Below are positions 10,706 to 39,793 of a stretch of 52,274 bases of DNA, in pieces. This DNA is from a virus: the IMG/VR virus record IMGVR_UViG_3300047373_000845, positions 1 to 52,274 of that record; one strand, written 5' to 3'. Under the pieces are notes generated by a model. The model was given only the letters and a program-made list of their open reading frames with translations. It was not told where the DNA came from and did not search any database. Positions within the stretch are counted from its first letter, which is position 1; each line of letters begins with the position of its first letter. The position numbers and the translations under genes were made by a program.

Positions 10706-12337
10706 CTATATACACTCCATATAATTTTTACCCGATGAAAACTCAACATCAAAAACCATATCATTATACTTGGATAATATATTTGTTATTTCATCAATTG
10801 AACTCATATCTTCTGGGTGTATGTCCATAACAAAAGAATCATGAACTTGAAACATAAAAGAAGATTTACTATTTTTAAGCCATGATTTTAACTCTCGAAT
10901 TTTATCAACAACTATTTCAGTGGCAGTAGATTGAACATAATTATTAAAAGCTGCATAAGACTTATTGGGCTTAATTAAAGTTCCAAAAGGATTTATTATG
11001 TATCCCAACTCTTTATATACACTGTTTATATATTCTGATGTTGTTAATATTGGAGATAAAAATAATTTTACATTACTTAAACACTCATCTACATCAACGC
11101 TTTCTATTTGTGATATTATATTTTTAACTAATTTATCTCCTCCACCATACAGAATAGCATGATTTACATCTTTTGCTACTTTTCTATGAATTTTAGTAAT
11201 TTCCACATCTAAAAACATTGATTTTGCAGCATTATAATGTAAATCAGAATTCATGTTTTTTAATATAAAATCCTCATCTCTAGACAAATACATAGAAAGC
11301 CTAGTTTCAAAAGACTTATAATCAAAAACTATAATAGTACCATTTTCGTATCTAGATATTATTTGATTTCTTATAACACTGTCTTTGGGTAGCATTTGTG
11401 GGTTAAAAGAATCAACACAATTTATCCTACCCGTTATAGTTCTTTTGTCAGAATATCTAAGCATTAAATATTTTTTGCCGTTTTCCCAAGTGCTTCTAAC
11501 ACCATTTGGAACCTTAAAGTTAGGCTCAAAATATATTTTATTAGTAGATAGCCATGAAGTTACTTTATCTTTTACGGTCTGTCTCATGCAAGAGTTTAAC
11601 TCATCTTTTGTGACTTCGTGATTATCTCTTATTATTTTCATTAAAATAGGTATATTTCTATACATGTTTCTTCCCAAAAACATTCTATTAAAATCTTTTG
11701 GCTCTATATAGTGTGAGTATTTAGACCAGAATATATTTTCTGTTGTCATAACATCTCTTATTTGGTCTATATAAACGTATTTAACAGAATTTTGATAACT
11801 GAATAACGTACATTCAATTTTATTAATAAGTCCTGTTAATATTTTTCTAGAATCTTTACCCACATATTCTAAACTAGATATACTTATAGTATAAGTATCT
11901 GATTCATTTTGAATATAGCACACATTTTTGTGAAAATATATAAAAGACCTTGAATTTTTATTTATATTTTTTAATAGAAAATCTCTTAACTCACCATCTA
12001 CTATAGCATCATACGAAATGGGTTTTTTATGAAAAAATTTTTTTATAGAATACTCTAAAAAAGACTTTATATCAGACTTGTTCTTTTCTTCTTTTTCAGT
12101 TAAACTAAAAGTCCAAAACAAATTATCACTTATTTTACTAGATAAAATAGACTGGTCCGGGTATATTTCTTTAACCTTGTTCCATCCTAAAATTAAAGTT
12201 GGAACTACTGGTTCTAAACTGCTATCTATATTATCTATTATATCTAGGGCAAAATCTCCATAATGAGCATTTATATAATCCAAATCATCTGATGAATAGG
12301 GTAATATTTTACAAATCTTTATCAAATTATGAAGCAT
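10706..12337 (-). CDS. polA: Family A DNA polymerase (divergent, no exonuclease domains seen)
   Basis: This 543-residue polymerase keeps the family A motifs in order: TGR (302-304), motif A FDYKSFETRLS with catalytic Asp339, motif B with Arg385, Lys389 and Tyr397, and motif C QVHDSF with Asp500. Three positions are unusual. His393 stands where E. coli Pol I has Phe762, Ala394 where it has Gly763, and Ser501 where it has Glu883. The first 230 residues show no DEDD proofreading motifs and no 5' nuclease domain; FEN is a separate gene. The phage also encodes a family C polymerase, so this enzyme may act in repair, primer replacement or lesion bypass. A TACATTTG box lies four bases before the ATG. 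Confidence 0.9.
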   Translation of the reverse strand: MLHNLIKICKILPYSSDDLDYINAHYGDFALDIIDNIDSSLEPVVPTLILGWNKVKEIYPDQSILSSKISDNLFWTFSLTEKEEKNKSDIKSFLEYSIKKFFHKKPISYDAIVDGELRDFLLKNINKNSRSFIYFHKNVCYIQNESDTYTISISSLEYVGKDSRKILTGLINKIECTLFSYQNSVKYVYIDQIRDVMTTENIFWSKYSHYIEPKDFNRMFLGRNMYRNIPILMKIIRDNHEVTKDELNSCMRQTVKDKVTSWLSTNKIYFEPNFKVPNGVRSTWENGKKYLMLRYSDKRTITGRINCVDSFNPQMLPKDSVIRNQIISRYENGTIIVFDYKSFETRLSMYLSRDEDFILKNMNSDLHYNAAKSMFLDVEITKIHRKVAKDVNHAILYGGGDKLVKNIISQIESVDVDECLSNVKLFLSPILTTSEYINSVYKELGYIINPFGTLIKPNKSYAAFNNYVQSTATEIVVDKIRELKSWLKNSKSSFMFQVHDSFVMDIHPEDMSSIDEITNILSKYNDMVFDVEFSSGKNYMECI

Positions 12338-12341
12338 GTGA

Positions 12342-12372
12342 CAAATGTATAAATTATTTGTAATATAAAAAA
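12342..12372 (-). promoter_or_regulatory. Candidate -33/-7 promoter of the family A polymerase gene
   Basis: TACATTTG (12342-12349, minus strand) fits TAnnTTTG exactly. The tetramer 19 bases upstream is TTTT instead of TTTG. The ATG follows the box by only four bases, so the transcript would be nearly leaderless. Confidence 0.5.
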
Positions 12373-12475
12373 TTATAAACTTATGGATTTATGTATATTA
12401 TAGTAAAAAAACATTGTTAATAAGTCTTTTATGAACTTATGTCTCTTACTCGTTATCAAATATCTAACTACGCAT

Positions 12476-15400
12476 TTAACCTTTTTCCTTGAGTATAGTC
12501 ACTCCTTGTCCTGCAAAGTTTTTATTAATATACTCAACAAATGCTGGAGCTCTTCCTTGAGCTCTTCTCATTCCTCCTAGTTTGTCATTAGGACTCAACT
12601 TCTTTTTTACTGTAGCAACTGTTTTGCCTGGCCCTGTGTTCAAATGATAATAAAAGAATACTGCGTTTTTTAAATCTGGGAATGTTACACCATTGTCGGG
12701 ACAGCCATAACCCTCCTGTCTAGTGGTATACCCAGTTTTTTTTGTTCCAAATCTTGAAGTCCTTCTTCTACCGTTAAAAAAGCCAACTAAAGCAGCTGTC
12801 GCAACATCTTCTTCTAACAATCTTTCAGGATATCTTATAAGGTCAACTCCTGAGTTTTTGGCAGCCTTTTCATATCCAGATTTAAATGTGATTTGATTAT
12901 ATCCTCTTCCTCTATATTTCCATCCATCACCTTTTCTTGTGTTTCCATAACCATTTGACCTTATACCTACTGGCTTTTGTGTGTAAACAATATTTGCAAT
13001 TTTTTCTTGATATTTGTCTGAATCAGCCTTTTTTGTTTTTGGATTAACAAAACCACCTTTTACAGGGTCATTCTTTTTAAAGTAACTCCAAACTTCTGGC
13101 AGTCTACTGGCGCTATAAAGAAATCCTTCTGACTTTAAATCGAAACTACTTTCTTTACTGCATATAGATAATACAGATGCGATAGCAAAATTACTCGTAA
13201 TACCTTCTTCTACGCATTTTTTTATAATTTTATCTATTCTTCTCTTTTTAGTTTTATTCCTTAAGTATGATGCAACAGTTTTAGAGCCTTTATCAGTACC
13301 AGTAACTGCGTAGTTGCCACCAGTTCCGTCACCAGCGCCACCGCCAGCACCTCCGCCATCGCTAACTGGGTCTTCTGAATTAAGTTTATCTTGTAATTCC
13401 TTTTCTTCTGCAGCTGAAATTCCTGACTTCTTTTCTAAAGGAGCTTCTTTAGCTATTCCTGCAGCATCTTCAAAGTCTTGAAGAGTTATGGGAAGAACTC
13501 CACCATAACTATTTCCTCCATATCTCATTTTTATTCCCGACAAATCTGTAGTCATATCATTGGGAGATATTTTGTGAGTCACTTTAATAATTTGATATAG
13601 ACCAGTAAAAATAGTATGATTTTCTAAAAAGAAAAACTGAAGAGGTGATATTTGAGAATTTCCAATAGTTTCAACCCCAGCCTTGTAACTTCTTCCTTCA
13701 AAAACAGAAAGCAAACTACAGTCAGTGGTTACGGTTTTGTTTTTGTTGTCATTATCTACAATTGCTTGCAAATTAACTATACTTTCAGCTGTAACCTTAT
13801 TTTCATCAGTGCTAACTTGTACATTTTTAATGATTTTATTTGTAGGGTCTCCAAATGCCACAGGAAAAGCTTGAACTTCAAAGGTTCTTAAATCTTTTAC
13901 AGCAGACTGCTTTTTGTTCGTATCATTACCCACTAAAGTTCTACTTTCTGGTGTTGGTTGGAACATAACTTGGAAAAAATTACCTATTCTTGGACCCATC
14001 ATTTCATGTGGCTTAAAAATGTCAGTCACTTTATCATACCTTGCATTTCCACATATAGGGAAAAACATAAAGTTATTTTTGGTACACAATTGCTGAAACA
14101 TATTTAATGTAGTAGTATTTGCTTTTGCCGAATAAAGTGGAGCTAAACTAATTAATGCATCTTTCACTTTAACTTTACTAGCCCCAACAGCTTGAAGGGG
14201 ATAATCATACCTAAAGCCTCCGCCAAGAACACTTCCATTATTTCTTTCTCTAGAAGAGGGGGTTATAGAGGCAGGAACTTGTCTTCCATAAACTTTCTGC
14301 ATTTCCTCTGCTACATTCGGAGTTAGAGTTGCTGGTTCTCCTGGTTGATTTATTCTGCTTCCATCACTTTTTCCACCCAATATTTGCCACTGATGAAAAA
14401 GAGTGTGCATTTGTTTATATATCAAATCTTCATGCTCTCCAGCCTTGCCTAATATTTGTCCAAAAACTTTATCTACTTCATCTTGTATTTTTTGTATTTT
14501 AGGCAACAATCCTAAAGCTAACTTTCTCAAAAATACTAAAGACATCTGAGAATAATCACCCTCATCGTTAAATGCACTAATTGGATTGTTTTTATTTCGA
14601 GTAGAGCCATATGGAGCTCTGTTTTCCTTTACCATCAAACCTCCCGCAATTGGGGTAAATGATTGGTTTGTTTCACCCCTTGATGGATATTGAGCATATG
14701 GAGCTATAACTACTGGTTTGTCTTCTATATTACGATAATTACCTTGTGCTGCTCCATTGATGGCTGTAGTTTCTGTTGTTGGTCCGAAATATTGTCGCCA
14801 TGCAAAAGTTTGAGGATTAAAATATTCTCTTACTGCGGTTCTAGTGTCTACATTACTTGCCTTTTTGTAATCATAAAATGTATACCTTATCTTATCGCCT
14901 GCAAATTCTGAAGAATCTCCCCAAATCATCCCAGGACCTCCACCAGTATATCCGTATAATCTTTTGTTAAAGAAAAGCATAAATGTATTATCTGTTTTGG
15001 AACCATCTGGCTCTTGTGGGTCTTTTGGCACCCTTGCTGAATCTAAAGTTATTATTTTAGCCACTTCATCCTCTACGGGTTCATTATCGCTTTGCTCATC
15101 TTCTTCTTCATCGCCTGTTGCTGTTGGTACAAGTCCCGGATTTTCTAATGCACCACCAACTCTTGAAACATCTCCAGAATCACTAAAAACAACATATTCT
15201 GTAAAATTACCTTCGTCTTGGGAGCCGTATGGAGAATCTCCTGAGGGCGCAGTATGAGCAAACACAACACCACCCATCCCTACCCATGAACCTAGGCTAG
15301 TCTTAAAATCCATACCATTACCCCAAGTGGGAGACACATAAGTTTTTCTAGTTACTCCATCTTCACCTTTTTCACCATTTTTTTGTTTTGTAGTTTGTCC

Positions 15401-17518
15401 AAAAAATGCTTTTTCAGGGCCAATTAAATTTCCAAAAATTTCCTCATATGTATACATTACAACACCTGCATTTGTCAATTCTGTACCAAGAGCGTTGGTT
15501 CTATTCATTACATTATTTTTGTTATCATAGAATGAACCTAATTTACCTTTCATAGAAGAATATGTAATGACTCTTAAATCTGGGAAATCGTCTCTTAAAA
15601 AGTTTATAATTTTTTTAGCTTGAGCTGATGTGGCCAAAGCGGCTAATCCAGGGTTGATTACAATGCCTCGTCTCATAATTCCACCAGAGCCAAAATTCCA
15701 CATACGTGTAGCATCAAGGTCGGCGTCTGGCCTTTGTATCCAACCTCTTATTGCTATGCAAAATTCTTTTAACTTCTGCAAGCCTTCAGTGTCTAATTGA
15801 GCCAAAACAACGTCTGTAATGTTAGCCAAATCTGAACTGGCTAAACTTCTTACTTTATCATAATCTTGATTTTTCTTATAATCTCCAAAATAAAAACGAG
15901 TATTACCATTTGGCTCTAAATTACCAGGTAATGCAGGATTGAAGCTCTGAGTTAAAAAACCAGCTATACCTGCTCTTTTAACCATTATAGAAGCTATCAT
16001 AGACCAATCATTTTGTCCTAAATAAGGATTGTCAGTGCCTATTTCCATATTATTTATAATATGTTTTATAGTTTTGTCAGCACCCGTATCAGCCTCCTTT
16101 TGCAAAGCCCTATTTTCTGCAATACCAAAACTTATAGCTGTAATAAAATCATTAACAAACTTTTTTTCAAAATCTTCAGTACCCAAGCCTTTTGCTGGTA
16201 TTTGGTTTCCCAAATCTTTTGTTCCATCTTTTGGCTTATCAAATATCATAGGATAATATCTTCCTATGGTTTTATTTTCTTCTGCTTTATTTCTCTCTTC
16301 AACATTATTAAGATAACCTTGCTCTCCTGCGTCTATTATATACCCCATTATATAAGCGGTATCTCTAGCAATTCTACTAAACACTTCAGAAATAGTCAAC
16401 TTTTTCAACTCGCTCTTGTTTTCTTTATATAGATTAGCTTTTATTGCATTTTCTATTATTTCTAAATTCGAATCTATTATAGGATTAAGCTTTTTAGCTC
16501 CTGTTTTTAACTTTTCTATATCAGCATTGCTTACATTTGAGCCAAATTTTGGTGTCTTGACGTTAGACACTCCTGGTGTTGAGGCAATTTTAACTTTCCA
16601 ATTTTCTATATTACGTAAACTAGGACTTAAATTTTTCAATGCAGGAAGTAATATTTCGTCATCTTCTTTGTAAGCATTATCTTTAGGTTTGGTAAGTGTT
16701 ATAGGTACAAAATCAGGTATTTCACCTCTACCAGGTATTTTACTTGATATTATATTTTCTCCTCCATCTTTATTAAATGATAGCTCTCCACTCACAACAC
16801 CTTGTATTGGGTCTCTTTTAGCTAGTTGTAATTTGGCAACTATTTCATCGTATTCTTTGGTTAAATTTGAAGTCTCAACCTCTATTGTCTTACCAATGTA
16901 CATCAAATCAATAATACTTTCTGTTGCTTCTATATAAGTTTTACTATCCTTTCCTATTGTAGGGTCTAACCTATCGGCTCTCAATTTTTTAGCAGCATAC
17001 AAATATAAAAAAGGTATATCCGCAAACATACCCCATTGATTAGGTACAAAAGTTGCCTTTATAGTATAGCTTCCATCATCAGAATTGTATTGAGTAGATG
17101 TGGTTTTCATATTTAGTAACCATGTAACAGGAGCTCCCAAATATCCTTTAAATGTAAATACAAACTTAGGTGGAGGCCACTGAAAAAGAGCAGCATAATT
17201 AACTCCATCAGCATCCACGTCATACGTTTCTCCAAAAACTGTTTTTCCAAACAAGTCCTTAAACTCTACTTCCACAATAGGCTGAAGAGATGTATTTGTT
17301 TCAATTTTTACATTAGTAATTCCAAAGCCTATCTGCCTTCTAAAAAAACCAGTTTTAAAAGTGGGCAATCCTGTAAAGTCTTCAACTTGACTTATAAATC
17401 CAGTATCTGGGTCTGTTACTACAGCACCCTCATTACTTATGGTTGACAGTCGAACATCTAAATATAAATCTCTCTCATCAAACTGTAAATCAGCTATATT
17501 TTCTGGAATTACTGGCAT
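12476..17518 (-). CDS. Giant baseplate hub / tail lysin with C-terminal GH19-type lysozyme domain
   Basis: This 1680-residue protein probably forms the central hub and needle region that breaks the cell wall during injection. The N-terminal and central parts look like baseplate beta-structure (FGKTVFGETYDV, FTFKGYLGAPVTW). A segment near 1130-1350 (NTTTLNMFQQLCTKNNFMF, QIIKVTHKIS) resembles hub domains. A glycine-rich linker near 1385-1402 leads to a GH19 chitinase/lysozyme-like domain (about 1426-1680). This carries a likely catalytic Glu in SKESSF, the GH19-like signature GDGWKYRGRGYNQITF, and a C-terminal EYINKNF. It follows the gp53-like gene by nine bases, a common baseplate neighbour. 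T4 also places its tail lysozyme in the hub, but as the separate protein gp5. Confidence 0.82.
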   Translation of the reverse strand: MPVIPENIADLQFDERDLYLDVRLSTISNEGAVVTDPDTGFISQVEDFTGLPTFKTGFFRRQIGFGITNVKIETNTSLQPIVEVEFKDLFGKTVFGETYDVDADGVNYAALFQWPPPKFVFTFKGYLGAPVTWLLNMKTTSTQYNSDDGSYTIKATFVPNQWGMFADIPFLYLYAAKKLRADRLDPTIGKDSKTYIEATESIIDLMYIGKTIEVETSNLTKEYDEIVAKLQLAKRDPIQGVVSGELSFNKDGGENIISSKIPGRGEIPDFVPITLTKPKDNAYKEDDEILLPALKNLSPSLRNIENWKVKIASTPGVSNVKTPKFGSNVSNADIEKLKTGAKKLNPIIDSNLEIIENAIKANLYKENKSELKKLTISEVFSRIARDTAYIMGYIIDAGEQGYLNNVEERNKAEENKTIGRYYPMIFDKPKDGTKDLGNQIPAKGLGTEDFEKKFVNDFITAISFGIAENRALQKEADTGADKTIKHIINNMEIGTDNPYLGQNDWSMIASIMVKRAGIAGFLTQSFNPALPGNLEPNGNTRFYFGDYKKNQDYDKVRSLASSDLANITDVVLAQLDTEGLQKLKEFCIAIRGWIQRPDADLDATRMWNFGSGGIMRRGIVINPGLAALATSAQAKKIINFLRDDFPDLRVITYSSMKGKLGSFYDNKNNVMNRTNALGTELTNAGVVMYTYEEIFGNLIGPEKAFFGQTTKQKNGEKGEDGVTRKTYVSPTWGNGMDFKTSLGSWVGMGGVVFAHTAPSGDSPYGSQDEGNFTEYVVFSDSGDVSRVGGALENPGLVPTATGDEEEDEQSDNEPVEDEVAKIITLDSARVPKDPQEPDGSKTDNTFMLFFNKRLYGYTGGGPGMIWGDSSEFAGDKIRYTFYDYKKASNVDTRTAVREYFNPQTFAWRQYFGPTTETTAINGAAQGNYRNIEDKPVVIAPYAQYPSRGETNQSFTPIAGGLMVKENRAPYGSTRNKNNPISAFNDEGDYSQMSLVFLRKLALGLLPKIQKIQDEVDKVFGQILGKAGEHEDLIYKQMHTLFHQWQILGGKSDGSRINQPGEPATLTPNVAEEMQKVYGRQVPASITPSSRERNNGSVLGGGFRYDYPLQAVGASKVKVKDALISLAPLYSAKANTTTLNMFQQLCTKNNFMFFPICGNARYDKVTDIFKPHEMMGPRIGNFFQVMFQPTPESRTLVGNDTNKKQSAVKDLRTFEVQAFPVAFGDPTNKIIKNVQVSTDENKVTAESIVNLQAIVDNDNKNKTVTTDCSLLSVFEGRSYKAGVETIGNSQISPLQFFFLENHTIFTGLYQIIKVTHKISPNDMTTDLSGIKMRYGGNSYGGVLPITLQDFEDAAGIAKEAPLEKKSGISAAEEKELQDKLNSEDPVSDGGGAGGGAGDGTGGNYAVTGTDKGSKTVASYLRNKTKKRRIDKIIKKCVEEGITSNFAIASVLSICSKESSFDLKSEGFLYSASRLPEVWSYFKKNDPVKGGFVNPKTKKADSDKYQEKIANIVYTQKPVGIRSNGYGNTRKGDGWKYRGRGYNQITFKSGYEKAAKNSGVDLIRYPERLLEEDVATAALVGFFNGRRRTSRFGTKKTGYTTRQEGYGCPDNGVTFPDLKNAVFFYYHLNTGPGKTVATVKKKLSPNDKLGGMRRAQGRAPAFVEYINKNFAGQGVTILKEKG

Positions 17519-17527
17519 TTTATATAT

Positions 17528-17839
17528 TTAGTTTATTGATTTTTTTCTTAGCAACTTACCTTCTACTTCGGTCAAAACCTCTCTTAAGGGCAATGGAATT
17601 CGAATCACCGTTTCCTTGGGAATGTCAAATTCCATATAGTACTCTGGATTTGCCATCAAAATAAGCCACCCATAAGTATCGTCTTCGTAAACTTCTGCAG
17701 ATATTCTGTCTAATCTAGTTTTATCAGAATTATAAACCCTAAAAACATCAGTATCTCTTTCGTTTATTTTTATAGGAGGCATTATCTCTGTGCCTTTTGC
17801 GTTTTTTGTTCTTAACAACTTATATCTATCTCTTCCCAT
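17528..17839 (-). CDS. Baseplate wedge protein, T4 gp53-like
   Basis: This 103-residue protein has the gp53-like pattern of a short LysM-type baseplate protein. An R-L-D-x-I-S core is followed by DDTYGWLILMANPEY and then an I-P-K-x-T-x-I-R-I-P segment. In T4, gp53 helps join the wedges into the baseplate around the hub. The position between the 1323-residue baseplate protein and the hub-lysin gene supports the call. A TATTTATA box lies 17 bases before the ATG. Confidence 0.72.
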   Translation of the reverse strand: MGRDRYKLLRTKNAKGTEIMPPIKINERDTDVFRVYNSDKTRLDRISAEVYEDDTYGWLILMANPEYYMEFDIPKETVIRIPLPLREVLTEVEGKLLRKKSIN

Positions 17840-17856
17840 TATTGTTTAATATATAC

Positions 17857-17864
17857 TATAAATA
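17857..17864 (-). promoter_or_regulatory. TATTTATA box before the gp53-like gene
   Basis: The minus-strand octamer TATTTATA ends 17 bases before the start codon of the wedge gene, in an 83-base non-coding gap. It matches the spacing seen before other virion genes here. Confidence 0.4.
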
Positions 17865-17922
17865 AATATTATTAGTTATTTTTTATACAAAATAAAACAA
17901 AAAAATAAAATGTAAACAGAAG

Positions 17923-28583: not shown

Positions 28584-28627
28584 TTTAATATAATTAATTT
28601 ATATGCTAATTTACATATAATATTCTA

Positions 28628-28644
28628 TTTTACAAAATGTAAAA
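28628..28644. repeat. Short inverted repeat
   Basis: TTTTACA and TGTAAAA are separated by three bases, giving a 7-bp symmetric element in the gap after the gp26-like genes. It could be a weak terminator or an operator. AT-only symmetry like this can also arise by chance. Confidence 0.35.
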
Positions 28645-28665
28645 ACTTTATTTTATTTAAATTAA

Positions 28666-29655
28666 CTATCTAGATTTTGACTTAGCTTCACTTCTAGCTT
28701 TATTTGCCGCTTGTCTATCTGCTTTATTTTTCTTTTCTACTTCTTCCTGTATTCTTTGCATTACCCACCTTCTCTCATATACGGGCATATTAAAAACATC
28801 ATCTCTTGAGAATCCTCCCTTTCCATAATAGGTAATTAAAAAAATCTCATCCATCATATGTTGTCGGTATTCTGGATTTAGTCCGAAAAAATTAGTGTCT
28901 ATAGGTATTTTATTTGAAGAAACATGTCCACAAGATGAACAAGTTGTATGTATTGTATTATCAACTCCTGGCTCTACACTATTCATATGAGACCTTAGTT
29001 TTGCCGAATCAGATAAAGACATTGCCTTAATTACTTTTCTAATAAAACCTTTGTCTTTTATACCGTTTATACTGGTTATCTGACTTCTATAAGTTACAGC
29101 TATTCTGTTTTCCAATTTTAAATCTCCAATTTTTTTAGACTCTTTTTCAACGGTTTTTATTATATTCCTTTCATCAGCTAATGTTTTAGGTCTAAATTTT
29201 ACAATAATTTTTTCACCTTTAATTTTCATTGTAGGCATTGTAAATTGATATTCCAAATTTTCGTCTGGGTGTTCTTTTATTTCTTTCATCTCTAATTCAG
29301 ATAAGTTAAAACTTGTTTCTGTTTCTGAATTGCAATTTCCGCATTTAAAATCAAAAGTCACTTTATCTCCATAAGAGGTAGACCTTAGATAAACCATAAA
29401 AGCATCTCTATCTCCAACTAACAACTTATCTATATTTCCATCCCAATCTAAAAGACAAGAACTCATTAGCATTTCTAGGGCTCTACCAGAATCTATTAAA
29501 GTTGGAGAAGTTAGTAAATTTTCTTCTTTAGCAGTAACGTATTTAACTAAAAAAGTTTCCTTTTTGTCTTTATAAAAAATACCCCTTGATGGAATTGAAA
29601 TCTCATCAAAGGGTACATTATTTTCTTTTACTATGTGTTTATATGAAATACTCAT
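28666..29655 (-). CDS. T4 gp26-like baseplate protein, long form with C-terminal extension
   Basis: This 329-residue protein fits the T4 gp26-like baseplate family. Visible parts are an N-terminal IPSRGIFY, a VKYVTAKEENLLTS core, GDRDAFMVYLRSTSYGD, then two CxxC pairs (Cys105/Cys108 in CGNC and Cys239/Cys242 in CSSC) that probably bind one zinc. After about residue 260 it carries an extra domain (HMMDEIFLITYYGKGGFS, VFNMPVYERRWVMQRI). This resembles the gp51-like partner that T4-like phages encode next to gp26. In T4, gp26 and gp51 act in hub assembly. A paralogue without the extension lies 12 bases upstream. Confidence 0.75.
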   Translation of the reverse strand: MSISYKHIVKENNVPFDEISIPSRGIFYKDKKETFLVKYVTAKEENLLTSPTLIDSGRALEMLMSSCLLDWDGNIDKLLVGDRDAFMVYLRSTSYGDKVTFDFKCGNCNSETETSFNLSELEMKEIKEHPDENLEYQFTMPTMKIKGEKIIVKFRPKTLADERNIIKTVEKESKKIGDLKLENRIAVTYRSQITSINGIKDKGFIRKVIKAMSLSDSAKLRSHMNSVEPGVDNTIHTTCSSCGHVSSNKIPIDTNFFGLNPEYRQHMMDEIFLITYYGKGGFSRDDVFNMPVYERRWVMQRIQEEVEKKNKADRQAANKARSEAKSKSR

Positions 29656-29667
29656 ATTGAATATTCA

Positions 29668-30570
29668 TTAAACATTTGCGTTAGGCCAGAATAACTTAGC
29701 TGTTATAGGAATTTCTTGACGATATGGCGTTCCACAATTGTTACATTCAAAATCATGATTTAAATCAATACCAGGCTCCATATCTTTTAGATATTCTCTA
29801 AAAAAGAAACTATCTGCTATAGGCATAACTCCTATGAATTTCTTAATATATGTCTTATCCCTATTTCCATTTACATCCATGATTTGCAATAAATATCTTT
29901 CAGTAAGAACAGTAGCAACTTTAAGCCTTCCTTTAACTGTCTTTTTTCCCGTTTCATTTATTTTTTGCAACCTAGATTCATCAGCTCCATTTAGTAGTCT
30001 AAATCTTATATTTGCCTTTGATTTAGGCAACATAACACTAAAAAGCCCTTCTGAGTCTGGCTTGTCGAACACTTCTCTATTTGATAAAGTAGAAAGTAAT
30101 ATAGAATTTTCATTAACCTCTGAACAGCTAGGACACGTAGTTTTAGTTTCGTACTCATCTCCATAACCCGTAATTCTTAAGTTAATTAGAACGGCATTCC
30201 TGTCACCAGTAAGCATTTCATCTGCCGTTATGTCTTTATCGATAAGTGCATTTTGAAGTAGTACATCTAAAACTTTACCGCTTTTTATCAAATCAGTACT
30301 TGTTAAAATGTTTTCATCTTCTGCCGTTAAATACTTTACTTCTACTGTTTTTTTTCCACTTGGATAAAAGACGCCCCCAGATGGTAAGTCAATATAATCT
30401 GTTGGAACTTCAAATTCAGTATCAATAAACTGAGCTGGTATATCATGCTTTTCCGCAACTGATTGAGCTCTAGATTGAGATGTATTATCTTGTACATTTT
30501 GAGCCTGCTGCTCTTGAGAGGGTCTAGTTCTTGATTGAACAGTTGGTTCTAAAGGATTATTTTCTTCCAT
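29668..30570 (-). CDS. T4 gp26-like baseplate protein, short paralogue
   Basis: This 300-residue protein is homologous to the next gene downstream: DLPSGGVFYP, VKYLTAEDENILTS, GDRNAVLINLRITGYGD, and two CxxC pairs (Cys146/Cys149 in CPSC, Cys276/Cys279 in CNNC). It differs by a Gln/Ser-rich N-terminal arm of about 45 residues and by ending soon after the second CxxC, so it lacks the gp51-like extension. The two probably form a heteromeric hub or assembly chaperone unit. Divergently transcribed from the plus-strand nuclease gene across a 96-base gap. Confidence 0.75.
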   Translation of the reverse strand: MEENNPLEPTVQSRTRPSQEQQAQNVQDNTSQSRAQSVAEKHDIPAQFIDTEFEVPTDYIDLPSGGVFYPSGKKTVEVKYLTAEDENILTSTDLIKSGKVLDVLLQNALIDKDITADEMLTGDRNAVLINLRITGYGDEYETKTTCPSCSEVNENSILLSTLSNREVFDKPDSEGLFSVMLPKSKANIRFRLLNGADESRLQKINETGKKTVKGRLKVATVLTERYLLQIMDVNGNRDKTYIKKFIGVMPIADSFFFREYLKDMEPGIDLNHDFECNNCGTPYRQEIPITAKLFWPNANV

Positions 30571-30666
30571 AATTTGTTTTTATTTATTAATTAGTAATTA
30601 TAAATAGCGTTGTCTAATTTTTATCAAAAATAAGAATGCATTATCAAAAGTAAATAGTAGTTTGTT

Positions 30667-31134
30667 ATGAATGAAGAAGAAAAAAAGAAAAAAGTAGCCT
30701 CTATATTGAGGAGGACTAAAAAAAAGTTGCTGAAACCGAAAAACAAAATAAAAAAAATAAAATACCTTCAAGCTCAATCTTATAGAATGAGCAAAAATAC
30801 CACTTGGCCTGAGAGGGAATTTGAATCATTACTAAAAGAAATGGGTATAGAATATGAATCTCAAAAAATATTAAAAGGTAAAATATTCGATTACTACATA
30901 CCTTCTTGTAATATGCTATGTGAAGTTGACGGAGATTACTATCATGGCAATGAAGAGAAATATAGCACACTAAACGAGATGCAAAAAAAAATAAAACAAA
31001 ACGACAGGTACAAAAACATAATATCCAAAGGTATGGGCTATGGAATATTTAGAGTTTGGGAATCTGAACTAAAGGATAGCAGAGAGCTTGTAAAAGAAAG
31101 AATTAGAAATGAAATACTAATCCAAAAACTCTAA
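30667..31134 (+). CDS. Vsr/DUF559-like endonuclease
   Basis: This 155-residue protein has a very basic N-terminal 35 residues followed by a PD-(D/E)XK-type nuclease like Vsr and DUF559 proteins. TWPEREFESLLKEMGIEY opens the domain, and the likely metal residues are Asp75 (IFDYYIP), Glu86 and Asp88 (CEVDGDYYHG). Vsr itself nicks DNA at mismatches; free-standing phage members are often selfish or processing nucleases. It is one of only three plus-strand genes. Its last 18 bases overlap the end of the RecD2-like gene tail to tail, which fits a later insertion. Confidence 0.78.
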   Translation: MNEEEKKKKVASILRRTKKKLLKPKNKIKKIKYLQAQSYRMSKNTTWPEREFESLLKEMGIEYESQKILKGKIFDYYIPSCNMLCEVDGDYYHGNEEKYSTLNEMQKKIKQNDRYKNIISKGMGYGIFRVWESELKDSRELVKERIRNEILIQKL

Positions 31135-33417
31135 CTCGGCCTCAGCCTCTTCGTAGTGTTCTTTCAAAAATGTTTTTAACGAGGTCTGTCTAGAATTTGG
31201 ATTTATATTTTCAACACCTCTATAAAAAGCTTCTCTTTCCCCTATTAAAATTGCCATTTTTCTAGCTCTGGTTATACCTGTGTATATCAAATTTCTATAC
31301 AGCATAATATTGTGCTCACTAAGAACTGGCATAATTACAACCTCAAACTCAGAACCCTGAGACTTATGTATACTAATACTATAAGCCAACTCTATTTCTA
31401 TTACATTCTGCCTTTCATACTGAACGAGTTTAGAATTATTAGAATTACCATAATCTATAATAAGACTAGAATCTTTCGAATTTATTTTTTTTATATAACC
31501 TATATCTCCATTAAAAACATTTAAATCATAGTTATTTGAAGTTTGTATAACTCTATCACCCTCCCTATAAGTTCTATCTCCTATTTTTATTTCTTTTTTA
31601 TTTTTTGACTCAGGATTAACCTCTCTTTGTATTCTTTTGTTTATTTCTCTAGTTCCTATAGAACCCTTATTCATGGGAGTCAGTATCTGAATTTCACACT
31701 TATTCCCCATATATTTTTTAATAGTGTCCTTATATAGTTTAACAATCATATCAAGAGCATTCATGCCATATTTAAAGGTTGAAAAGTCAGACACCTTACT
31801 TAAGCTTTTTTCCATAGAAGAATCTATAAACATACAATCAGTGTCACCCTTCCATATAGAAGGAGACTTGATTGGCGTGTCTATATTTGGTGTTTCGCCT
31901 TTATTTATTTGATGTGCGTAAGTTATTATTTTAGACTTTTCCGCTTGCCTAAAAACTTTTTGTAGATTATAAATTTGTATACAATTACTTTGAATTAAAT
32001 CTGACATTAAGTTGCCAATACCTACAGATGGCAATTGGTCTTTATCTCCAACCAACAATATTTGAGTGCTTGGAGATATGGCTCTAAAAAAAGAGGATGC
32101 TAATCTTATGTCTATCATAGAAGACTCATCTAAAATAATAAAGTCACAATCTAACATATCTTTTTCTGACTTTCTAAAATTACCATTACCAGCATCCCAC
32201 TTTAAAAGTCTATGAATAGTTTTTGACTGAGAACCTATAACTTCAGACATTCTTTGAGCGGCTCTACCTGTTGGTGCGGCCAACAAAACTTCTTTGCCCA
32301 TAGACACCAGCATGTCATATACGTATTTTACTGTTGTTGTCTTACCAACCCCTGGGCCTCCTGTTAGGACAGATAATCCATTTGATAAAACACCCATTAC
32401 TGACTCAGACTGTTCTTCGCTTAATTTTATGTCAGACATTTTCAACATTGAATCAAGTCTATCCTTAAGCTCTTCTTTATTGTTGGCATATATTTTTTTA
32501 GAAAGTCTAATAACTTTTTCCGCAACATATTTTTCATCATAAAAAACATCTCTTGAATAATACCTTTTTTCTTCATTCTGATTCTCAGAAATTTTCACGC
32601 AAACTATACTATCTGCCAACTCTTCTCTTTCCAATATATTAGAAATCTTTTCTACCGAAGATATGTTTATTAATTTAAACAATCTTTTCTTAATTTGTTT
32701 TTTTGTCAAATAACAATGTCCATCAGAATGATTGTTGGATAATATGTGATGTATTGCAGAAGAAATTCTTTCTTCACTATCTTTTTTAAAACCTAAACTC
32801 ATAGCAAGTTTATCTGCCATTGTAAAGCCAAATCCGTTAATGTCAGAAGATAGTTTATAAGGGTTCTTTTTTATTATAGGAATTGAGCTAATCCCATATT
32901 CTTTATAAATCTTTACAGAAAAAATAGTGCTAATCATGTGTTCTTGAAGGAAGAGCATTATACTATTCATTTCTTGATTACTTTTCCAACTATCTTTTAA
33001 TACCTTTAATTTACTTATATGTATTCCTCTAACTTCTGTAAGTCTCTCAATATTATTTCTAAAAACATCCAAAGCTTCATCTCCAAAATACTTTACAATC
33101 TTCTTTGCAGTAACAGGCCCTATACCTGGGAAAAATCCAGAACTTAGGTATTTTATAACAGCTTCAGTAGTTGCTGGGGGTATTTCTTGACAAGAATCTG
33201 CCTTAAACTGCTTTCCAAACTTAGGGTGCTTAATCCATGAGCCAGAAAATTTCATAGTAACTCCCTCAAACACTTTTGGCTGATTAACGGTTACTGTTAT
33301 ATTGTCTTTTATATTCTTGTCACCAACAACCTCCACACTTAATATTCCATAACCATTTAAGGGATTATGAAATTTTATTCTTTTTATTATGCCAGTTAAA
33401 TCGTTTGAGTTTGTCAT
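31117..33417 (-). CDS. recD2: RecD2-type SF1 DNA helicase
   Basis: This 766-residue helicase moves 5' to 3' on single-stranded DNA. The N-terminus has the OB-like segment and helix-hairpin-helix of RecD2 (GIGPVTAKKIVKYFG, near 98-112). Walker A is GGPGVGKTT (353-361), motif II is ILDESSMID, motif III is VGDKDQLPSVG, and motif VI lies near SISIHKSQGSEF. The architecture is that of free-standing RecD2, not of RecD in RecBCD. In phages such helicases help start replication and clear proteins, like Dda of T4. It is last in an unbroken run of four minus-strand genes. Confidence 0.92.
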   Translation of the reverse strand: MTNSNDLTGIIKRIKFHNPLNGYGILSVEVVGDKNIKDNITVTVNQPKVFEGVTMKFSGSWIKHPKFGKQFKADSCQEIPPATTEAVIKYLSSGFFPGIGPVTAKKIVKYFGDEALDVFRNNIERLTEVRGIHISKLKVLKDSWKSNQEMNSIMLFLQEHMISTIFSVKIYKEYGISSIPIIKKNPYKLSSDINGFGFTMADKLAMSLGFKKDSEERISSAIHHILSNNHSDGHCYLTKKQIKKRLFKLINISSVEKISNILEREELADSIVCVKISENQNEEKRYYSRDVFYDEKYVAEKVIRLSKKIYANNKEELKDRLDSMLKMSDIKLSEEQSESVMGVLSNGLSVLTGGPGVGKTTTVKYVYDMLVSMGKEVLLAAPTGRAAQRMSEVIGSQSKTIHRLLKWDAGNGNFRKSEKDMLDCDFIILDESSMIDIRLASSFFRAISPSTQILLVGDKDQLPSVGIGNLMSDLIQSNCIQIYNLQKVFRQAEKSKIITYAHQINKGETPNIDTPIKSPSIWKGDTDCMFIDSSMEKSLSKVSDFSTFKYGMNALDMIVKLYKDTIKKYMGNKCEIQILTPMNKGSIGTREINKRIQREVNPESKNKKEIKIGDRTYREGDRVIQTSNNYDLNVFNGDIGYIKKINSKDSSLIIDYGNSNNSKLVQYERQNVIEIELAYSISIHKSQGSEFEVVIMPVLSEHNIMLYRNLIYTGITRARKMAILIGEREAFYRGVENINPNSRQTSLKTFLKEHYEEAEAELEFLD

Positions 33418-33424
33418 TTTATCT

Positions 33425-34540: not shown

Positions 34541-34902
34541 AATTGATTGTTTTCATCATTTTCATTGTCTTGCTCTATATTTTCTGCATTTATAGCCTCT
34601 TGAAAAATGTCCATAGCCCGAGAGCTTAACAAAACAAAATCAGCAACTCCAGAACTTCTTTTTTGAATAATTTCAGAATATTTTTTTAGAGAATCAGCCA
34701 AATCTTTTTTCCATTCATTGGACATATCTTCTTTAATTTTTTTATTGAAAAGCTCTAACAGCAGGAATCTTTTATTTGGATTATTTGAAGCGGGAATAGA
34801 TTTTTTTGACTTGGAAAATGGTGATTCAAAGCTCTTTTTTGACATGTCCCAAAAAGAGCTTTTGTTTTTATCCTTATTATTTTCTTCTTCACTTTTCAAC
34901 AT
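34537..34902 (-). CDS. Unknown 121-residue polar protein
   Basis: This is a Ser/Lys/Asn-rich protein with a disordered-looking first third (KKSFESPFSKSKKSIPAS), a central helical segment (RFLLLELFNKKIKEDM) and an acidic Asn/Glu/Asp tail. It overlaps the next gene by four bases and lies 12 bases after the 115-residue gene, so it is part of the four-gene cassette ending in recD2. No motif suggests an enzyme. A scaffold or adaptor role is possible but not shown. Confidence 0.62.
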   Translation of the reverse strand: MLKSEEENNKDKNKSSFWDMSKKSFESPFSKSKKSIPASNNPNKRFLLLELFNKKIKEDMSNEWKKDLADSLKKYSEIIQKRSSGVADFVLLSSRAMDIFQEAINAENIEQDNENDENNQL

Positions 34903-34914
34903 GTTTTCAACTTT

Positions 34915-35262
34915 TTATAAATTATCCTTTATTATCTTGTGGTTTTTAACACCCTCTTTTTTAAAAGATTTTTGCTTTACCCTTTTATAGTCCAACCCCA
35001 AATCTTTAAAGTACTCTTCCATAGTTGGAAGGGCTAAACTAAAATAGTCACATATAGTTTCTTCATATTCTTTTACTTCTTCAGAATCCAAACCCTGAGT
35101 GTCTACTTCAAATCCAGACACATATTTAACCTGTTCTTTGTCTATTTCTGAAAAAGAATTAAAAGATTCTTTAAGAAATTTAGGGGCAATAATGTTTCTT
35201 ACAGATTCTTCACCATCTTTTTTAGTATAATCAAAAATTATTTTCCTTATAAAATCAGGCAT
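34915..35262 (-). CDS. Unknown 115-residue protein, first gene of the recD2 cassette
   Basis: It starts MPDFIRKIIFDYTKKDGEE, then is mostly helical with Glu/Lys-rich ends. It is the first gene of the minus-strand run 35262 to 31117. Only 32 bases separate it from the plus-strand holin gene. A promoter for it would have to lie inside the start of the holin gene, where a matching box exists. No family is recognised. Confidence 0.62.
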   Translation of the reverse strand: MPDFIRKIIFDYTKKDGEESVRNIIAPKFLKESFNSFSEIDKEQVKYVSGFEVDTQGLDSEEVKEYEETICDYFSLALPTMEEYFKDLGLDYKRVKQKSFKKEGVKNHKIIKDNL

Positions 35263-35294
35263 TGAGAGATATTTTTTAATATTATTGACTATTT

Positions 35295-35813
35295 ATGTAT
35301 AACAACAAAAATACGAAAAATAATATTGATATGAAAGAGAATAAGCTAATTTTAGGCTTTGGTAGCGTAAAAGAGCTGATGGATTCTGCTCTTGGATTAA
35401 AAAACTCATTTGTAAACTTCATACTTGCTGGGTGTACTGCTTTAACATCATTTATAACACAATACATATGGGATGATGCTTCTGCTGTATATTTTATGTT
35501 ATTTTTAATTTTAATAGATGCAGGTACTGGTGTTTGGAAATCAATCATAAACAGAAGTTTTAGTAGCAGTAAGTTACCTAGAGTTTTTGTCATTTCAATA
35601 ATATACGTTTTAATGCTTGCTATAAGTTGGAATGCCGCAAAGCATTCGGACTTATTTATATGGTTACCAGGTATGGTTTATGGAGGACTAATAGGAACTC
35701 CATTAGTTTCTATATATGAAAACTTTGCAGAGTTAGGATATGTACCTAAAGGTCTTATTTATGATATTAAAGAAAAAATAAAAAATTACTTTAATAAAAA
35801 ATATAAAAACTAA
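35295..35813 (+). CDS. Holin, phage holin-4 family type
   Basis: This 172-residue membrane protein should open the inner membrane at lysis. Hydrophobic segments lie around residues 42-60, 64-83, 97-115 and 120-137. The family-typical LILIDAGTGVWKS links the second segment to a basic loop (RSFSSSKLPR). The C-terminus is basic (KIKNYFNKKYKN). Translation may start at the first ATG or at the internal ATG at residue 13, giving MKENKLILGFG. It is on the plus strand, ends four bases into the polymerase gene convergently, and no endolysin gene adjoins it. The known lysozyme domain is in the hub protein. Confidence 0.82.
   Translation: MYNNKNTKNNIDMKENKLILGFGSVKELMDSALGLKNSFVNFILAGCTALTSFITQYIWDDASAVYFMLFLILIDAGTGVWKSIINRSFSSSKLPRVFVISIIYVLMLAISWNAAKHSDLFIWLPGMVYGGLIGTPLVSIYENFAELGYVPKGLIYDIKEKIKNYFNKKYKN
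35306..35336 (-). promoter_or_regulatory. Candidate promoter inside the holin gene start
   Basis: On the minus strand TTTC (35333-35336), 19 bases, then TATTTTTG (35306-35313). The -7 box is exact for TAnnTTTG and the -33 box has one mismatch. It would drive the four-gene cassette 35262 to 31117. Confidence 0.45.
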
Positions 35814-38800
35814 TATACTCTTCTAAATTGACAGCCATCTTGAAATTTTAACCAGTTTCTATCTTTAGAAAACTTAGTCAAATATATACCCCCCTTTTCT
35901 ACTAAATCTTTTATTCTGTCATAAGCATCCGACCAAACTACCATTTTTACAGAAGTACCGCCATCGCTAAGTTCAAGTGACCAATATTTTTTATTATTTT
36001 TAGAAATTTTTTCTAAAACGTCTTTTATTACAAAATAATAATATTTATTTGGGTTGTCAAAAGAAGTTACTGCTTCAATAGTAAAATCGTACTCTTCTTT
36101 AAATTGTTGTTTTATTTTAGATATTTTATTAAAAAGTTGTAAATCCAAAATGCAAACATCCATAAAATCCTTATATTTTACATCTTTAGGAGTTGGCTCA
36201 AACTTTTCTTTAAGGCTTTCTTCTATAATGTCGAATCTGTTTTGTCCAAACAAATCCATTTGCATAGTATTACTTTTTATTTTGAACTTACGAAATTCCA
36301 TCAACTCGTCTCTAGAGTCTGACCAATCGTCAAAAACTCCAGCCTTTAAACATGCTTCAAAATTTGCCTTATTAAATTTAGAAAACTTATGCATAAAAAA
36401 TTTATCCTTACCCACATTGGCAATATCTACCTTTTGCAACTCCTCATAAGCAATCTCTCCCATTCCATTTATGCTAGAGAATCCCATTAAAATAGTTTCT
36501 TCGTCTAACATGCCCCACTCCCAACTTGATTTCCTGTTAGGAGGCAAAATCTTAATCCCTTTAGTGAATGCACCCATTATAGCAGAAGACAACCATGACT
36601 CATCATCTTTAGCATGATTGAGTAATGCGGTATAAAATTCGGTAGGATAGTACCTTTTCATGAATAATGTTTGCATAGCCACATAACTATAACTTACTGA
36701 ATGTGAGCGATTAAAAGAGTATCCCAAATACTTTACCAACCACTCCTCTATGTCTTTGACTTCATTTTCTTGAAGACCTTTTTCCTTACATCCTGACTTG
36801 AACTTTTCCCAAAGTACTAAATATTCTTTATAATTCTTGTTATTATATTCTTTTTCTTCTAACACATCTCCAGATAAGTTTTTCTTTATGATTTTAGAAG
36901 CTTTATCCATTACCTTTCTTAAATTATCACCTTCTCCCAAAGTCATTCCAGCCAACTCATGTGCTATAAACATTAATTGCTCTTGGAATATAAGTACACC
37001 GTTAGTGTTTCTAAGTAAGGGTTCTAAAGAAGGGTGTACCAAACTTATCTCTTCTGGGTTTTTCTTATTTCTAATATATTCTTCATGAGCACCCACACCC
37101 ATAGGCCCAGGTCTATATAAAGCATTTGCGGCAACCATTTCTTCAAAACTTTCTATGTGCATTCTCTTTATCAGCTTAGACATACCGTCAGATTCAAATT
37201 GAAATACACCCTGATTGTTTCCACTTCTAATTTCTTCGAATAAATCTGAATTATCTAAATCAACATATTTTACCTGCTCAGAAACATCTATACCCCTATT
37301 TTCTTTAACTAATTTTATAGCCTCTTTAAGTATGTTTAGTGTAGTTAAATTTAATCTGTCCAACTTTAATATTCCCAAGTCAGACAAATCTTTACCACTG
37401 CCAGACTCTTGAAAACCAGAAACAGTTACTCCTTTTACCATGTTTACAGGCATATACTCCCAAACAGGACCAGGCGTTATAACTATACCAGCCGCATGTT
37501 TACCTAGGTTTCTAACTTGACCTTGTAGCGTTAGGGTTGTGTCTATTGTTTTTTTGTTATTGGGGTTTTCTATCCATTTTTTAACCAAATCAGATGCTTC
37601 TGGTGTATTTGGGTGCTGTTCTAGCCAATCTTTTAAATCACCATCATATTTCATAAACATTTTAGGCATCTCTTTTGTGACCGCAAATATTTCAGAATCA
37701 AAACCAGCATCTCCTCCAAATGCTTTAACAACATCTTTTATACACCCTTTCTCATTAAATGTGGAAAATGTTATAACTGGGAAAACGCATTCCTTTCCGT
37801 ATTTGTTATACAAAAATTCATCCGTCTTTACATCTGAACCAGTCTCGAAGTCTATGTCAATATCGGGAGGTGAGTTTCTGGCGGGGTTCAAGAATCTCTC
37901 AAAATACAAATCAAATCTTAATGGGTCAATTTTAGTTATATCTAAACACCAAGATAAAAGACTTCCTGCAGCACTACCTCTGCCTGGTCCAACTTCTATA
38001 TCGTTGTCAGCGCAAAATCTTATTAATTCCCAAACAACAAGAAAATAATCTAACATTTTCTTTTCTTTTATGACGCCCAATTCATAGTCTAACCTCTCTC
38101 TGTACTGAACCACTTTGTCATCATCTATTTCAATTGGCCCACGTTTCCTATATATGTTAAGCTTTTGGTTGAGCTTAGCATGTGACAGCCTTCTTATAAT
38201 CTCTTCTCCATCATTGGTCTTAAAAAAATCATAAACATCTTTTGTAGGCTTATAATTAGGATATTTCTCTACGTCTGTTTCAAATTCAAAATTACATATA
38301 GAAGCAATTTTTTCACTTGTAATCATACACATTTTCAAAAAATCTTCACTATAATTAAACTCATAATCTTTATTCATTTCTAATAGCTGCCCTTCGTCAA
38401 CATAGTACATATCTCTACTATCTTTAGTTCTAGCTTTTTTTATAGACCTTTTTTGGTTTATTGAAATCAAAACATCTTGAAGTACTTTGTCTTTTTTTTC
38501 TGGGTAATATATATCATTAGAAACTATTATAGCCATGCTATACTTGTCAGACATGTTTATTATAAAATCATTATAATTCCTTTGTATTTCATTATCTTCT
38601 AAAGATATTTCAGCTATATAAGATTTTTTACCAAATACATTTAACATGTTGACCAAATAATCTTCCGCCTCTTTGTATTTGCCCATTTGTAAATACTTGG
38701 ATATAGTTCCATTTTTAGATGATGTTGTCAATATTAGACCCTCTTTATTTTCTAGAATCCATGAAGTTTTTATTCTAGGAACTCTATAAAAACCTTCTGC

Positions 38801-39793
38801 AAATGATAAGTAATTTATTTTGTTAATATTAACAAAACCTTCTTTGTTTGTGACAATTATTTTTTGAAGAACATTTTTGTCTTGTTGCTTAGGCTCATAT
38901 TCACCACCTATACTATCATTTAAATGAAATTCACAACCTATTATTGGTTTTATATCTTTTGATTTACATTTTTGATAAAAAGAAAAAGCACCAGATAAAC
39001 TGCCCTTATCTGTTAATACTAAGGATTTATGATTATATTTTTTTGCCAAATTAATATAGTCAGAAGTAGAGCCAGCACCTTCTAAAACAGAGTGATAGGT
39101 GTGAACTCCAAAATTAACCATAGAAAAATCTTTATCAAATTCTCCATTTTTTGTTTTCCACTTATTAATCATGTTTTTTTCAGAATTTTCCGAAAAAATA
39201 TAATTTCTAAAATCTTCACCAAAACCTAGTGCACCAATTCTTCTAAGCTCAAAAAAACATCTAGCTAGAGCCTCTACATCAACTAAAGCATCATGCGCAT
39301 CTTCGAATGTCTTTTTAAAAAGTTTTTTATGTAACTCGGTAAGAGTTGGAGGCTTTAAACCCATCTTACCTTGTATTCTGCAAAAATCTATAGTAGAGTT
39401 CATAGTACAAACATTGACTATGTCTCTCATTGAGTTTTTCATTTTTAACCTGAAAAACTCAGAGGCTGTGACTTTATTGTCAAAGCTGATGTTGTGAGCA
39501 ACTATAAAACTAGAATTTTCTACATCTTTAGAAAAAGCTTGCAAAACCTCTCTTATAGGTTGACCTTCTCTGTTGGCTCTATCGTTAGTTATTCGATGAA
39601 TTCTAATACTTTCATCAGGTATAACAAAGCCATCTGGCTTTACTATTCTATTGTTAGAGCCTATAACTTTTCCATTTATGTCATAAACCTTCCATGCTAA
39701 CTGTACTATCCTAGGCCAATTATCAGTGTCGCTAATAGGTGCACTAAAGTCTTCAGGCAACCCAGTTGTTTCTGTGTCAAATACTATAAACAT
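35810..39793 (-). CDS. dnaE: DNA polymerase III alpha (family C) with N-terminal proofreading exonuclease
   Basis: This 1327-residue replicase starts at the ATG at 39791-39793. An earlier TTG three codons upstream overlaps the promoter box. Residues 1-190 are a DEDD exonuclease: FDTETTGL (Asp6, Glu8), AHNISFDN and HDALVD. A PHP domain follows (about 225-300) but its metal motifs are broken: VHTYH instead of a usual H-x-D or H-x-E, and LTDKG instead of LTDHG. The catalytic core has GPGRGSAAGS (near 601) and PDIDIDFE (near 640-647). QMDLF (1178-1182) matches the bacterial beta-clamp-binding motif, and an OB-like end follows. Exonuclease and polymerase fused this way mean proofreading in one chain; the PHP probably has only a structural role. 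Confidence 0.93.
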   Translation of the reverse strand: MFIVFDTETTGLPEDFSAPISDTDNWPRIVQLAWKVYDINGKVIGSNNRIVKPDGFVIPDESIRIHRITNDRANREGQPIREVLQAFSKDVENSSFIVAHNISFDNKVTASEFFRLKMKNSMRDIVNVCTMNSTIDFCRIQGKMGLKPPTLTELHKKLFKKTFEDAHDALVDVEALARCFFELRRIGALGFGEDFRNYIFSENSEKNMINKWKTKNGEFDKDFSMVNFGVHTYHSVLEGAGSTSDYINLAKKYNHKSLVLTDKGSLSGAFSFYQKCKSKDIKPIIGCEFHLNDSIGGEYEPKQQDKNVLQKIIVTNKEGFVNINKINYLSFAEGFYRVPRIKTSWILENKEGLILTTSSKNGTISKYLQMGKYKEAEDYLVNMLNVFGKKSYIAEISLEDNEIQRNYNDFIINMSDKYSMAIIVSNDIYYPEKKDKVLQDVLISINQKRSIKKARTKDSRDMYYVDEGQLLEMNKDYEFNYSEDFLKMCMITSEKIASICNFEFETDVEKYPNYKPTKDVYDFFKTNDGEEIIRRLSHAKLNQKLNIYRKRGPIEIDDDKVVQYRERLDYELGVIKEKKMLDYFLVVWELIRFCADNDIEVGPGRGSAAGSLLSWCLDITKIDPLRFDLYFERFLNPARNSPPDIDIDFETGSDVKTDEFLYNKYGKECVFPVITFSTFNEKGCIKDVVKAFGGDAGFDSEIFAVTKEMPKMFMKYDGDLKDWLEQHPNTPEASDLVKKWIENPNNKKTIDTTLTLQGQVRNLGKHAAGIVITPGPVWEYMPVNMVKGVTVSGFQESGSGKDLSDLGILKLDRLNLTTLNILKEAIKLVKENRGIDVSEQVKYVDLDNSDLFEEIRSGNNQGVFQFESDGMSKLIKRMHIESFEEMVAANALYRPGPMGVGAHEEYIRNKKNPEEISLVHPSLEPLLRNTNGVLIFQEQLMFIAHELAGMTLGEGDNLRKVMDKASKIIKKNLSGDVLEEKEYNNKNYKEYLVLWEKFKSGCKEKGLQENEVKDIEEWLVKYLGYSFNRSHSVSYSYVAMQTLFMKRYYPTEFYTALLNHAKDDESWLSSAIMGAFTKGIKILPPNRKSSWEWGMLDEETILMGFSSINGMGEIAYEELQKVDIANVGKDKFFMHKFSKFNKANFEACLKAGVFDDWSDSRDELMEFRKFKIKSNTMQMDLFGQNRFDIIEESLKEKFEPTPKDVKYKDFMDVCILDLQLFNKISKIKQQFKEEYDFTIEAVTSFDNPNKYYYFVIKDVLEKISKNNKKYWSLELSDGGTSVKMVVWSDAYDRIKDLVEKGGIYLTKFSKDRNWLKFQDGCQFRRVY

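Follow-up and report, generated by a model that had tools for sequence, protein, structure and literature searches.

We analysed a stretch of 52,274 bases (the window), the linear IMG/VR record IMGVR_UViG_3300047373_000845, which is a fragment of a genome and encodes two DNA polymerases of different families, one of family A and one of family C. Its source is a virus of bacteria, probably a large phage, and the host is perhaps a member of the Bacteroidota, perhaps of the Flavobacteria, judging from the nearest cultured phage and from the architecture of the DnaE-type protein. The minus strand carries nearly all window genes; at both polymerase loci the plus strand is riddled with stop codons, and the intact open reading frames (ORFs) lie on the minus strand. 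An initial annotation had placed a family A gene and a family C gene with its own exonuclease at these loci. Both were found to be intact and supported by Pfam, and the FEN, helicase, single-strand DNA-binding protein (SSB) and RecA genes listed with them were confirmed by Pfam and PHROG matches (DnaB, FEN, UvsX/RecA and gp32-type SSB).

Two DNA polymerase genes and their setting

Residues 243-540 of the family A protein match the Pfam domain DNA_pol_A (E 1.5e-21). The palm aspartates D339 and D500 (motifs A and C), the steric-gate residue E344 and the O-helix residues R385, K389 and Y397 are invariant in its homologs down to 35% identity (alignment A6). In the N-terminal domain, which comprises the first ~230 residues, E81 and D110 are the sole invariant acidic residues of 11 homologs. 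Because a DEDD site needs four acids, a conserved site of this kind is impossible; the loss of exonuclease motifs proposed initially is borne out, and the 3'-5' exonuclease is predicted to be dead. An AlphaFold model, built from an 11-sequence alignment (pLDDT 81.9, pTM 0.71), matched the Bst, Klenow and apicoplast polymerases over its whole length in Foldseek (best E 3e-17, TM ~0.5-0.62). The model points to a Klenow-like fold across the entire protein, with a vestigial exonuclease domain. The palm aspartates, the steric-gate Glu and the overall fold are thus common to the window protein and the Pol I large fragment (Klenow, Bst), whereas the two share only ~12-15% identity and the window protein lacks the DEDD residues and has His for Phe762 and Ser for Glu883. 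The 5' nuclease portion of Pol I is absent from the family A protein; the window encodes it as a separate gene, FEN.

The substitution at position 762 is a constant feature of the lineage. His393 (codon 11159-11161) stands at the position of E. coli F762, and His was present in every lineage member examined, namely the window and the family A genes L013-L024, L086, L088-L095 and L212-L215. Phage immuto has Phe at this position, and other phage family A enzymes have F or Y; surveys of family A enzymes give F, Y and L (PMC6302109, PMC13228545). No report of His at position 762 was found in the literature, of which our coverage was incomplete.

In the family C protein, Pfam recognised DNA_pol3_alpha (1.7e-66), the finger domain (8.9e-45), PHP (2.5e-29) and RNase_T (1.1e-15), as well as HhH. 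The domain order is Exo-PHP-Pol3-fingers-(HhH)2-OB, with PHP at residues 233-399. The ORF can be extended to a TTG at 39802, but the proteins of relatives start at what would be its fourth residue, and ATG 39793 is probably the true start. The exonuclease motifs FDTET, HNISFD and HDALVD form a complete DEDDh set, which is kept in relatives and in Capnocytophaga, and the catalytic aspartates (PDIDIDF, LKLD) are conserved in relatives. The clamp motif first noticed in this protein, QMDLF, is real. Q1181, D1183, L1184 and F1185 are invariant in alignment A1, the motif aligns with that of mycobacterial DnaE, and its position is kept in relatives, the distant ones having QxxLF or QxxMF there. To call the enzyme complete was an overstatement: its PHP metal-binding histidines are partly replaced, leaving a degenerate metal site, and the match to NCBIfam PRK05673 (1.2e-213) ends at 1043 of 1146 model positions, so that the tau-binding C-terminal domain is missing. 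Judged by their motifs, the active sites of both polymerases look intact.

An N-terminal exonuclease on DnaE has been reported solely from Bacteroidetes, in whose DnaE1 it is joined by a linker N-terminal to PHP, as in the window protein (PMC3919608). In the best 80 matches aligned from the first residues, cellular proteins were represented by Capnocytophaga DnaE alone; its exonuclease domain and those of the phages are 43-46% identical, whereas the polymerase cores are only 34% identical. In a polymerase-core tree, built by a quick method and containing long branches, the phage proteins formed a separate deep clade outside Bacteroidota (SH-aLRT 100). The window core is not nested within Bacteroidota DnaE1, and the window protein is without the tau-binding domain typical of DnaE1. 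Recent capture of the gene from a Bacteroidetes host is therefore unsupported by the core tree, although the architecture and the exonuclease similarity point to Bacteroidota. A PolC-type origin was rejected because the exonuclease precedes PHP instead of being inserted and because PolC models score far below DnaE models.

The positions of both genes, their neighbours and the interrupted loci of relatives described below are collected in Table 1. The window also carries a small plus-strand gene (30667-31134) between the baseplate genes and RecD2, which has weak DUF559/restriction-endonuclease similarity and an 86% identical counterpart at the same place in the related record G008. A 1,680-residue protein (12476-17518) has an endolysin-type domain near its C-terminus, the remainder being without a match.

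Table 1. Positions of the two polymerase genes, neighbouring genes and split-intein loci. Positions refer to the window unless a locus of a relative is named.
Feature	Position	Strand	Evidence
Family A DNA polymerase, 543 aa, Klenow-like, predicted dead exonuclease domain	10706..12337	-	Pfam, alignment A6, AlphaFold/Foldseek, immuto synteny
DnaE-type family C DNA polymerase III alpha, N-terminal DEDDh exonuclease	35810..39793	-	Pfam, NCBIfam, invariant catalytic/exonuclease motifs
DEDDh exonuclease domain of family C protein, residues 6-183	39254..39787	-	RNase_T 1.1e-15
Clamp-binding pentapeptide QMDLF, family C residues 1181-1185 (numbering from TTG 39802)	36248..36262	-	Conservation
Single-strand DNA-binding protein, T4 gp32 type	9721..10491	-	phrog_1192 4.6e-10; immuto SSB 29% identity, E 4e-17
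UvsX/RecA-like recombinase	8736..9701	-	phrog_97 6.8e-20; best known match phage immuto, E 1e-42
FEN / 5'-3' exonuclease	7696..8736	-	Pfam 5_3_exonuc_N 1.1e-29; immuto FEN 31% identity
DnaB-type replicative helicase	6176..7576	-	phrog_19 5.8e-84; DnaB_C 9.9e-28; immuto DnaB 32% identity
Ribonucleotide reductase small subunit	5080..6090	-	Pfam 1.4e-110; position as immuto NrdB
Ribonucleotide reductase large subunit	2406..5063	-	Pfam 5.2e-197; position as immuto NrdA
RecD2 helicase, close to family C gene	31117..33417	-	Pfam AAA_19 1.6e-40, HHH_RecD2 4.3e-34
Split-intein loci of relatives (three sites overall: GPGRG/S, NPARN/S, FNK/SHS)	L012:11831-12338; L007:11930-13470; L046:4923-6486; L053:4899-6724 and 7923-9309; L059:4929-6848

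Conservation of the pairing and its published precedents

Close relatives of each polymerase gene, fetched independently, proved to lie on the same contigs. Pfam searches of whole records detected both families in G001, G002, G003, G006, G007 and G008 (70-232 kb), and both were also present in the more distant G013, G015, G019, G021, G022, G023, G024 and G027 (up to 388,594 bases). With the window, 15 IMG/VR records hold both genes; as some represent the same phage in different samples, the pairing is conserved across ~10 distinct phages. The distance between the genes, measured on four contigs, is 23.5 kb in the window and G002, 24.1 kb in G003 and 24.0 kb in G008. A join of two genomes in assembly, which would have undone the initial claim, is excluded by these fifteen records. 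Co-occurrence spans protein identities from 99% down to ~48% for family C and 35% for family A. Family A was not detected, even by profile, in the sub-lineage of G025, G029 and G031 (43% identity; fragments of at most 141 kb), in which family C is present.

Selection on both genes was estimated by the Nei-Gojobori method, comparing the window with matched contigs. The dN/dS values for family A and family C, respectively, were 0.114 and 0.019 against G002, 0.100 and 0.042 against G001, and 0.267 and 0.109 against G007-type; synonymous sites are near saturation in distant pairs, and the values are quantitative for close pairs only. Both genes are under purifying selection (dN/dS <0.3), and family C is the more constrained. 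The intact palm motifs and low dN/dS make it unlikely that either gene is inactive. No beta clamp was found in 15 records with Pfam PF00712, a PCNA-type clamp not having been searched for. The window has T4-type baseplate, portal and terminase genes (28666-30570, 40775-42604 and 43340-45001), and no family B (T4-type) polymerase was detected in the 16 records of the lineage that were searched.

Of 50,697 phage records, 1,475 have a match to P0002-like sequences if exonuclease-only matches are counted. None of 24 published family C phages sampled across the P0002 match range had a family A protein detectable with profile A6. This search repeated a Pfam family A search, which had missed the degenerate protein of Microcystis phage Mel-JY01; the profile did recover it, together with two further divergent family A enzymes of phages, and these three served as positive controls. 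Conversely, five records that contain phage family A enzymes yielded no family C gene, and genomes with polymerases of two families have been reported from just 2 of 1,514 genus-level groups (PMC11348598). The premise that phages usually carry a single polymerase family is upheld by these counts.

A closely similar arrangement has nevertheless been described. In 2024, divPolA1, a divergent family A polymerase with an inactivated exonuclease and a truncated thumb, was reported from 14 phages with genomes of 155-190 kb, among them Flavobacterium phage immuto; in addition, these phages have a regular polymerase, which belongs to family A, B or C (PMC11348598). The immuto gene order polA-SSB-UvsX-FEN-DnaB-NrdB-NrdA is identical to that of the window, each pair of genes being homologous, except that immuto has two extra small genes after polA. 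The window family A protein matches the immuto protein over 237 residues with 23% identity in blastp (E 7e-7) and with E 3.4e-10 in the A6 profile. For the window UvsX, matches listed other than that of immuto were about 1e-7 or weaker, and immuto is also among the best matches listed for the window TerL. As with divPolA1, a partner polymerase, a dead exonuclease, conserved palm residues, the downstream gene order and homology to the immuto protein were all found in the window. By gene order and sequence, the window family A gene is a positional ortholog of divPolA1. The two differ in that the immuto protein has 441 residues and Phe762, whereas the window protein is ~100 residues longer and has His762 and a family C partner; a family C gene was not detected in immuto. 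A possible further relative is L229 of Mel-JY01, a short family A protein that is apparently without the usual O-helix motif and is annotated as hypothetical. The Mel-JY01 terminase is the best match of the window terminase, and L229 may be a decayed divPolA1.

The pairing is therefore not unprecedented, the two-polymerase divPolA1 arrangement having been published (PMC11348598). The window arrangement is a variant of this published kind, and what is novel here is the invariant His762, the Exo-DnaE architecture and the split inteins in the family C genes of relatives. The group 2.2 jumbo phages likewise have two polymerases of different families, one of them related to Pol III alpha, but theirs are a family B enzyme and a minimal Pol III made as two proteins, in contrast to the A and C enzymes of the window lineage (PMC7824862).

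Split inteins in the family C genes of relatives

The window family C gene is uninterrupted, whereas those of many relatives are broken at catalytic motifs. In L012/L010, the coding sequence stops after GPGRG and an N-intein and resumes with a C-intein whose terminal HN precedes SAAGSLL. A second break, seen among others in L007, L046, L053 and L059, follows NPARN or an equivalent sequence and lies immediately before PDIDIDF; here a free-standing ORF separates the two halves. The L053 group has a third insertion, after FNK and before SHS, and L054 has a split-intein version with the middle ORF mostly deleted. The N-halves match Pfam Intein_splicing (3.6e-7) and Hint (3.5e-6), and at the first two sites the C-intein halves, which lie on separate ORFs, have a terminal HN followed by Ser. 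On these sequence features, split inteins appear to rejoin a two-gene family C enzyme in some relatives. The intervening ORFs have only a weak Pfam match, to DUF7487; from their position and a resemblance to the endonucleases of fractured genes, we take them to be putative homing endonucleases.

The split DnaE of cyanobacteria (Ssp, Npu) is reportedly also encoded by two genes with intein halves, as in the phage relatives, but the phage sites lie at the GRGS and PDIDIDF motifs, with a third at FNK/SHS. 'Fractured gene' split inteins are said to have been described by Dassa in 2009. A split intein in a family B polymerase of a jumbo phage has already been reported (PMC6892783). A continuous intein occupies the third phage site, FNK/SHS, in a planctomycete DnaE (L149, Rhodopirellula sp. 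SM50).

Other interruptions and unusual genes were seen among the relatives. The RecD2 of G008 (L181:12545-15880; 232 kb record) contains a LAGLIDADG intein of ~345 aa (Hom_end_hint 9.5e-21) that the window RecD2 is without. In G008 (232,514 bases), the position where synteny would put DnaB lacks the gene, and the rest of the record yields just a weak phrog_19 match; in G003, the DnaB gene is split in two frames (G003:C1:67414-68690). G008 also carries cell-like genes (L177:11104-12795 and others), namely acyl-CoA dehydrogenase, ClpP, DnaJ and topoisomerase I, as well as sigma-70 domains, an RNase R-like RNB and two kinds of tRNA synthetase domain.

Proposed division of labour between the two polymerases

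We infer from the sequence which enzyme copies the genome, that the host clamp is used and that family A fills gaps. The reading that we favour, with a probability of roughly 0.58, is that replication falls to family C, which probably works on the host beta clamp, and that family A and the separate FEN carry out Pol I-like gap filling. With its fused proofreading exonuclease and clamp motif, family C would be the processive replicase; because of the QMDLF pentapeptide, it would most likely ride the host beta clamp. Family A, a divPolA1 ortholog without proofreading, would form a split Pol I with the separate FEN, SSB and UvsX, whose gap filling would follow primer removal and also take place during recombination-dependent synthesis. 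The adjacency of family A to SSB, UvsX, FEN and DnaB, an order shared with immuto, is consistent with this assignment. Further points in its favour are the presence of both genes in fifteen records, the low dN/dS of both and the lower value of family C, the conserved motifs of each enzyme, the failure to find a family B polymerase or a Pfam beta clamp in the relatives searched, and the placement of split inteins in relatives at the catalytic motifs of family C. The role of main replicase given to family C in the initial annotation would thus stand; primer removal, there suggested for family A as an alternative to lesion bypass, would instead be the task of FEN, after which family A fills the gaps.

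Several points weigh against this assignment. The absence of the tau-binding domain makes coupling of family C to the host clamp loader uncertain, and family A may be dispensable, given the sub-lineage with family C alone. Moreover, the window family A gene sits with the helicase and SSB genes, and family C lies 24 kb off, between RecD2 and the head/tail genes. Since the replication-like neighbourhood of divPolA1 persists while the second polymerase differs in family from phage to phage, the neighbourhood of the partner being variable (PMC11348598), the roles could be reversed: divPolA1 would be the fork polymerase with DnaB and SSB, and family C, located apart near RecD2 and structural genes, would serve repair, lagging-strand or late recombination-dependent synthesis. 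We consider this unlikely, because family A is without proofreading residues and a recognisable processivity factor, has the unusual His762 and shows the faster evolution of the two on shared contigs, whereas family C has both proofreading and a clamp motif.

It is about equally improbable that family A is a lesion-bypass or recombination-repair polymerase and not a filler of primer gaps. Its lost exonuclease residues, its substituted O-helix residue and the immediate neighbours UvsX and SSB would suit such a role, but the FEN gene, too, is a syntenic neighbour, a point in favour of Okazaki processing, and the sequence revealed no feature diagnostic of bypass. The chance that the two enzymes are partly redundant, one being a replacement in progress, is slim. 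Polymerase swapping is frequent in Caudoviricetes (PMC11348598) and the sub-lineage in which only family C was detected exists; however, both genes have low dN/dS in close pairs, and co-occurrence down to ~48% and 35% identity has lasted too long for a transient state.

Taken with replicase and gap-filler roles for family C and family A, these observations suggest a broader picture, which we offer tentatively and at somewhat less than even odds. A lineage of large phages with T4-like heads would use a Pol III that does its own proofreading and works on the host clamp, together with a Pol I-like gap filler of a new motif-B class (His762) arising with the family C partner, in place of the family B replicase of T4; in part of the lineage, the replicase would work only after trans-splicing of halves joined inside the active site.

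Because phages normally have one polymerase family, the conserved pair of A and C enzymes is a natural experiment on keeping Pol I beside Pol III, and it makes testable whether phages split labour as bacteria do. The effect of His762 likewise becomes testable; in family A enzymes, both speed and the choice of nucleotide are known to depend on residue 762. The broken replicase genes of the relatives provide new candidate trans-splicing inteins at polymerase active-site motifs.

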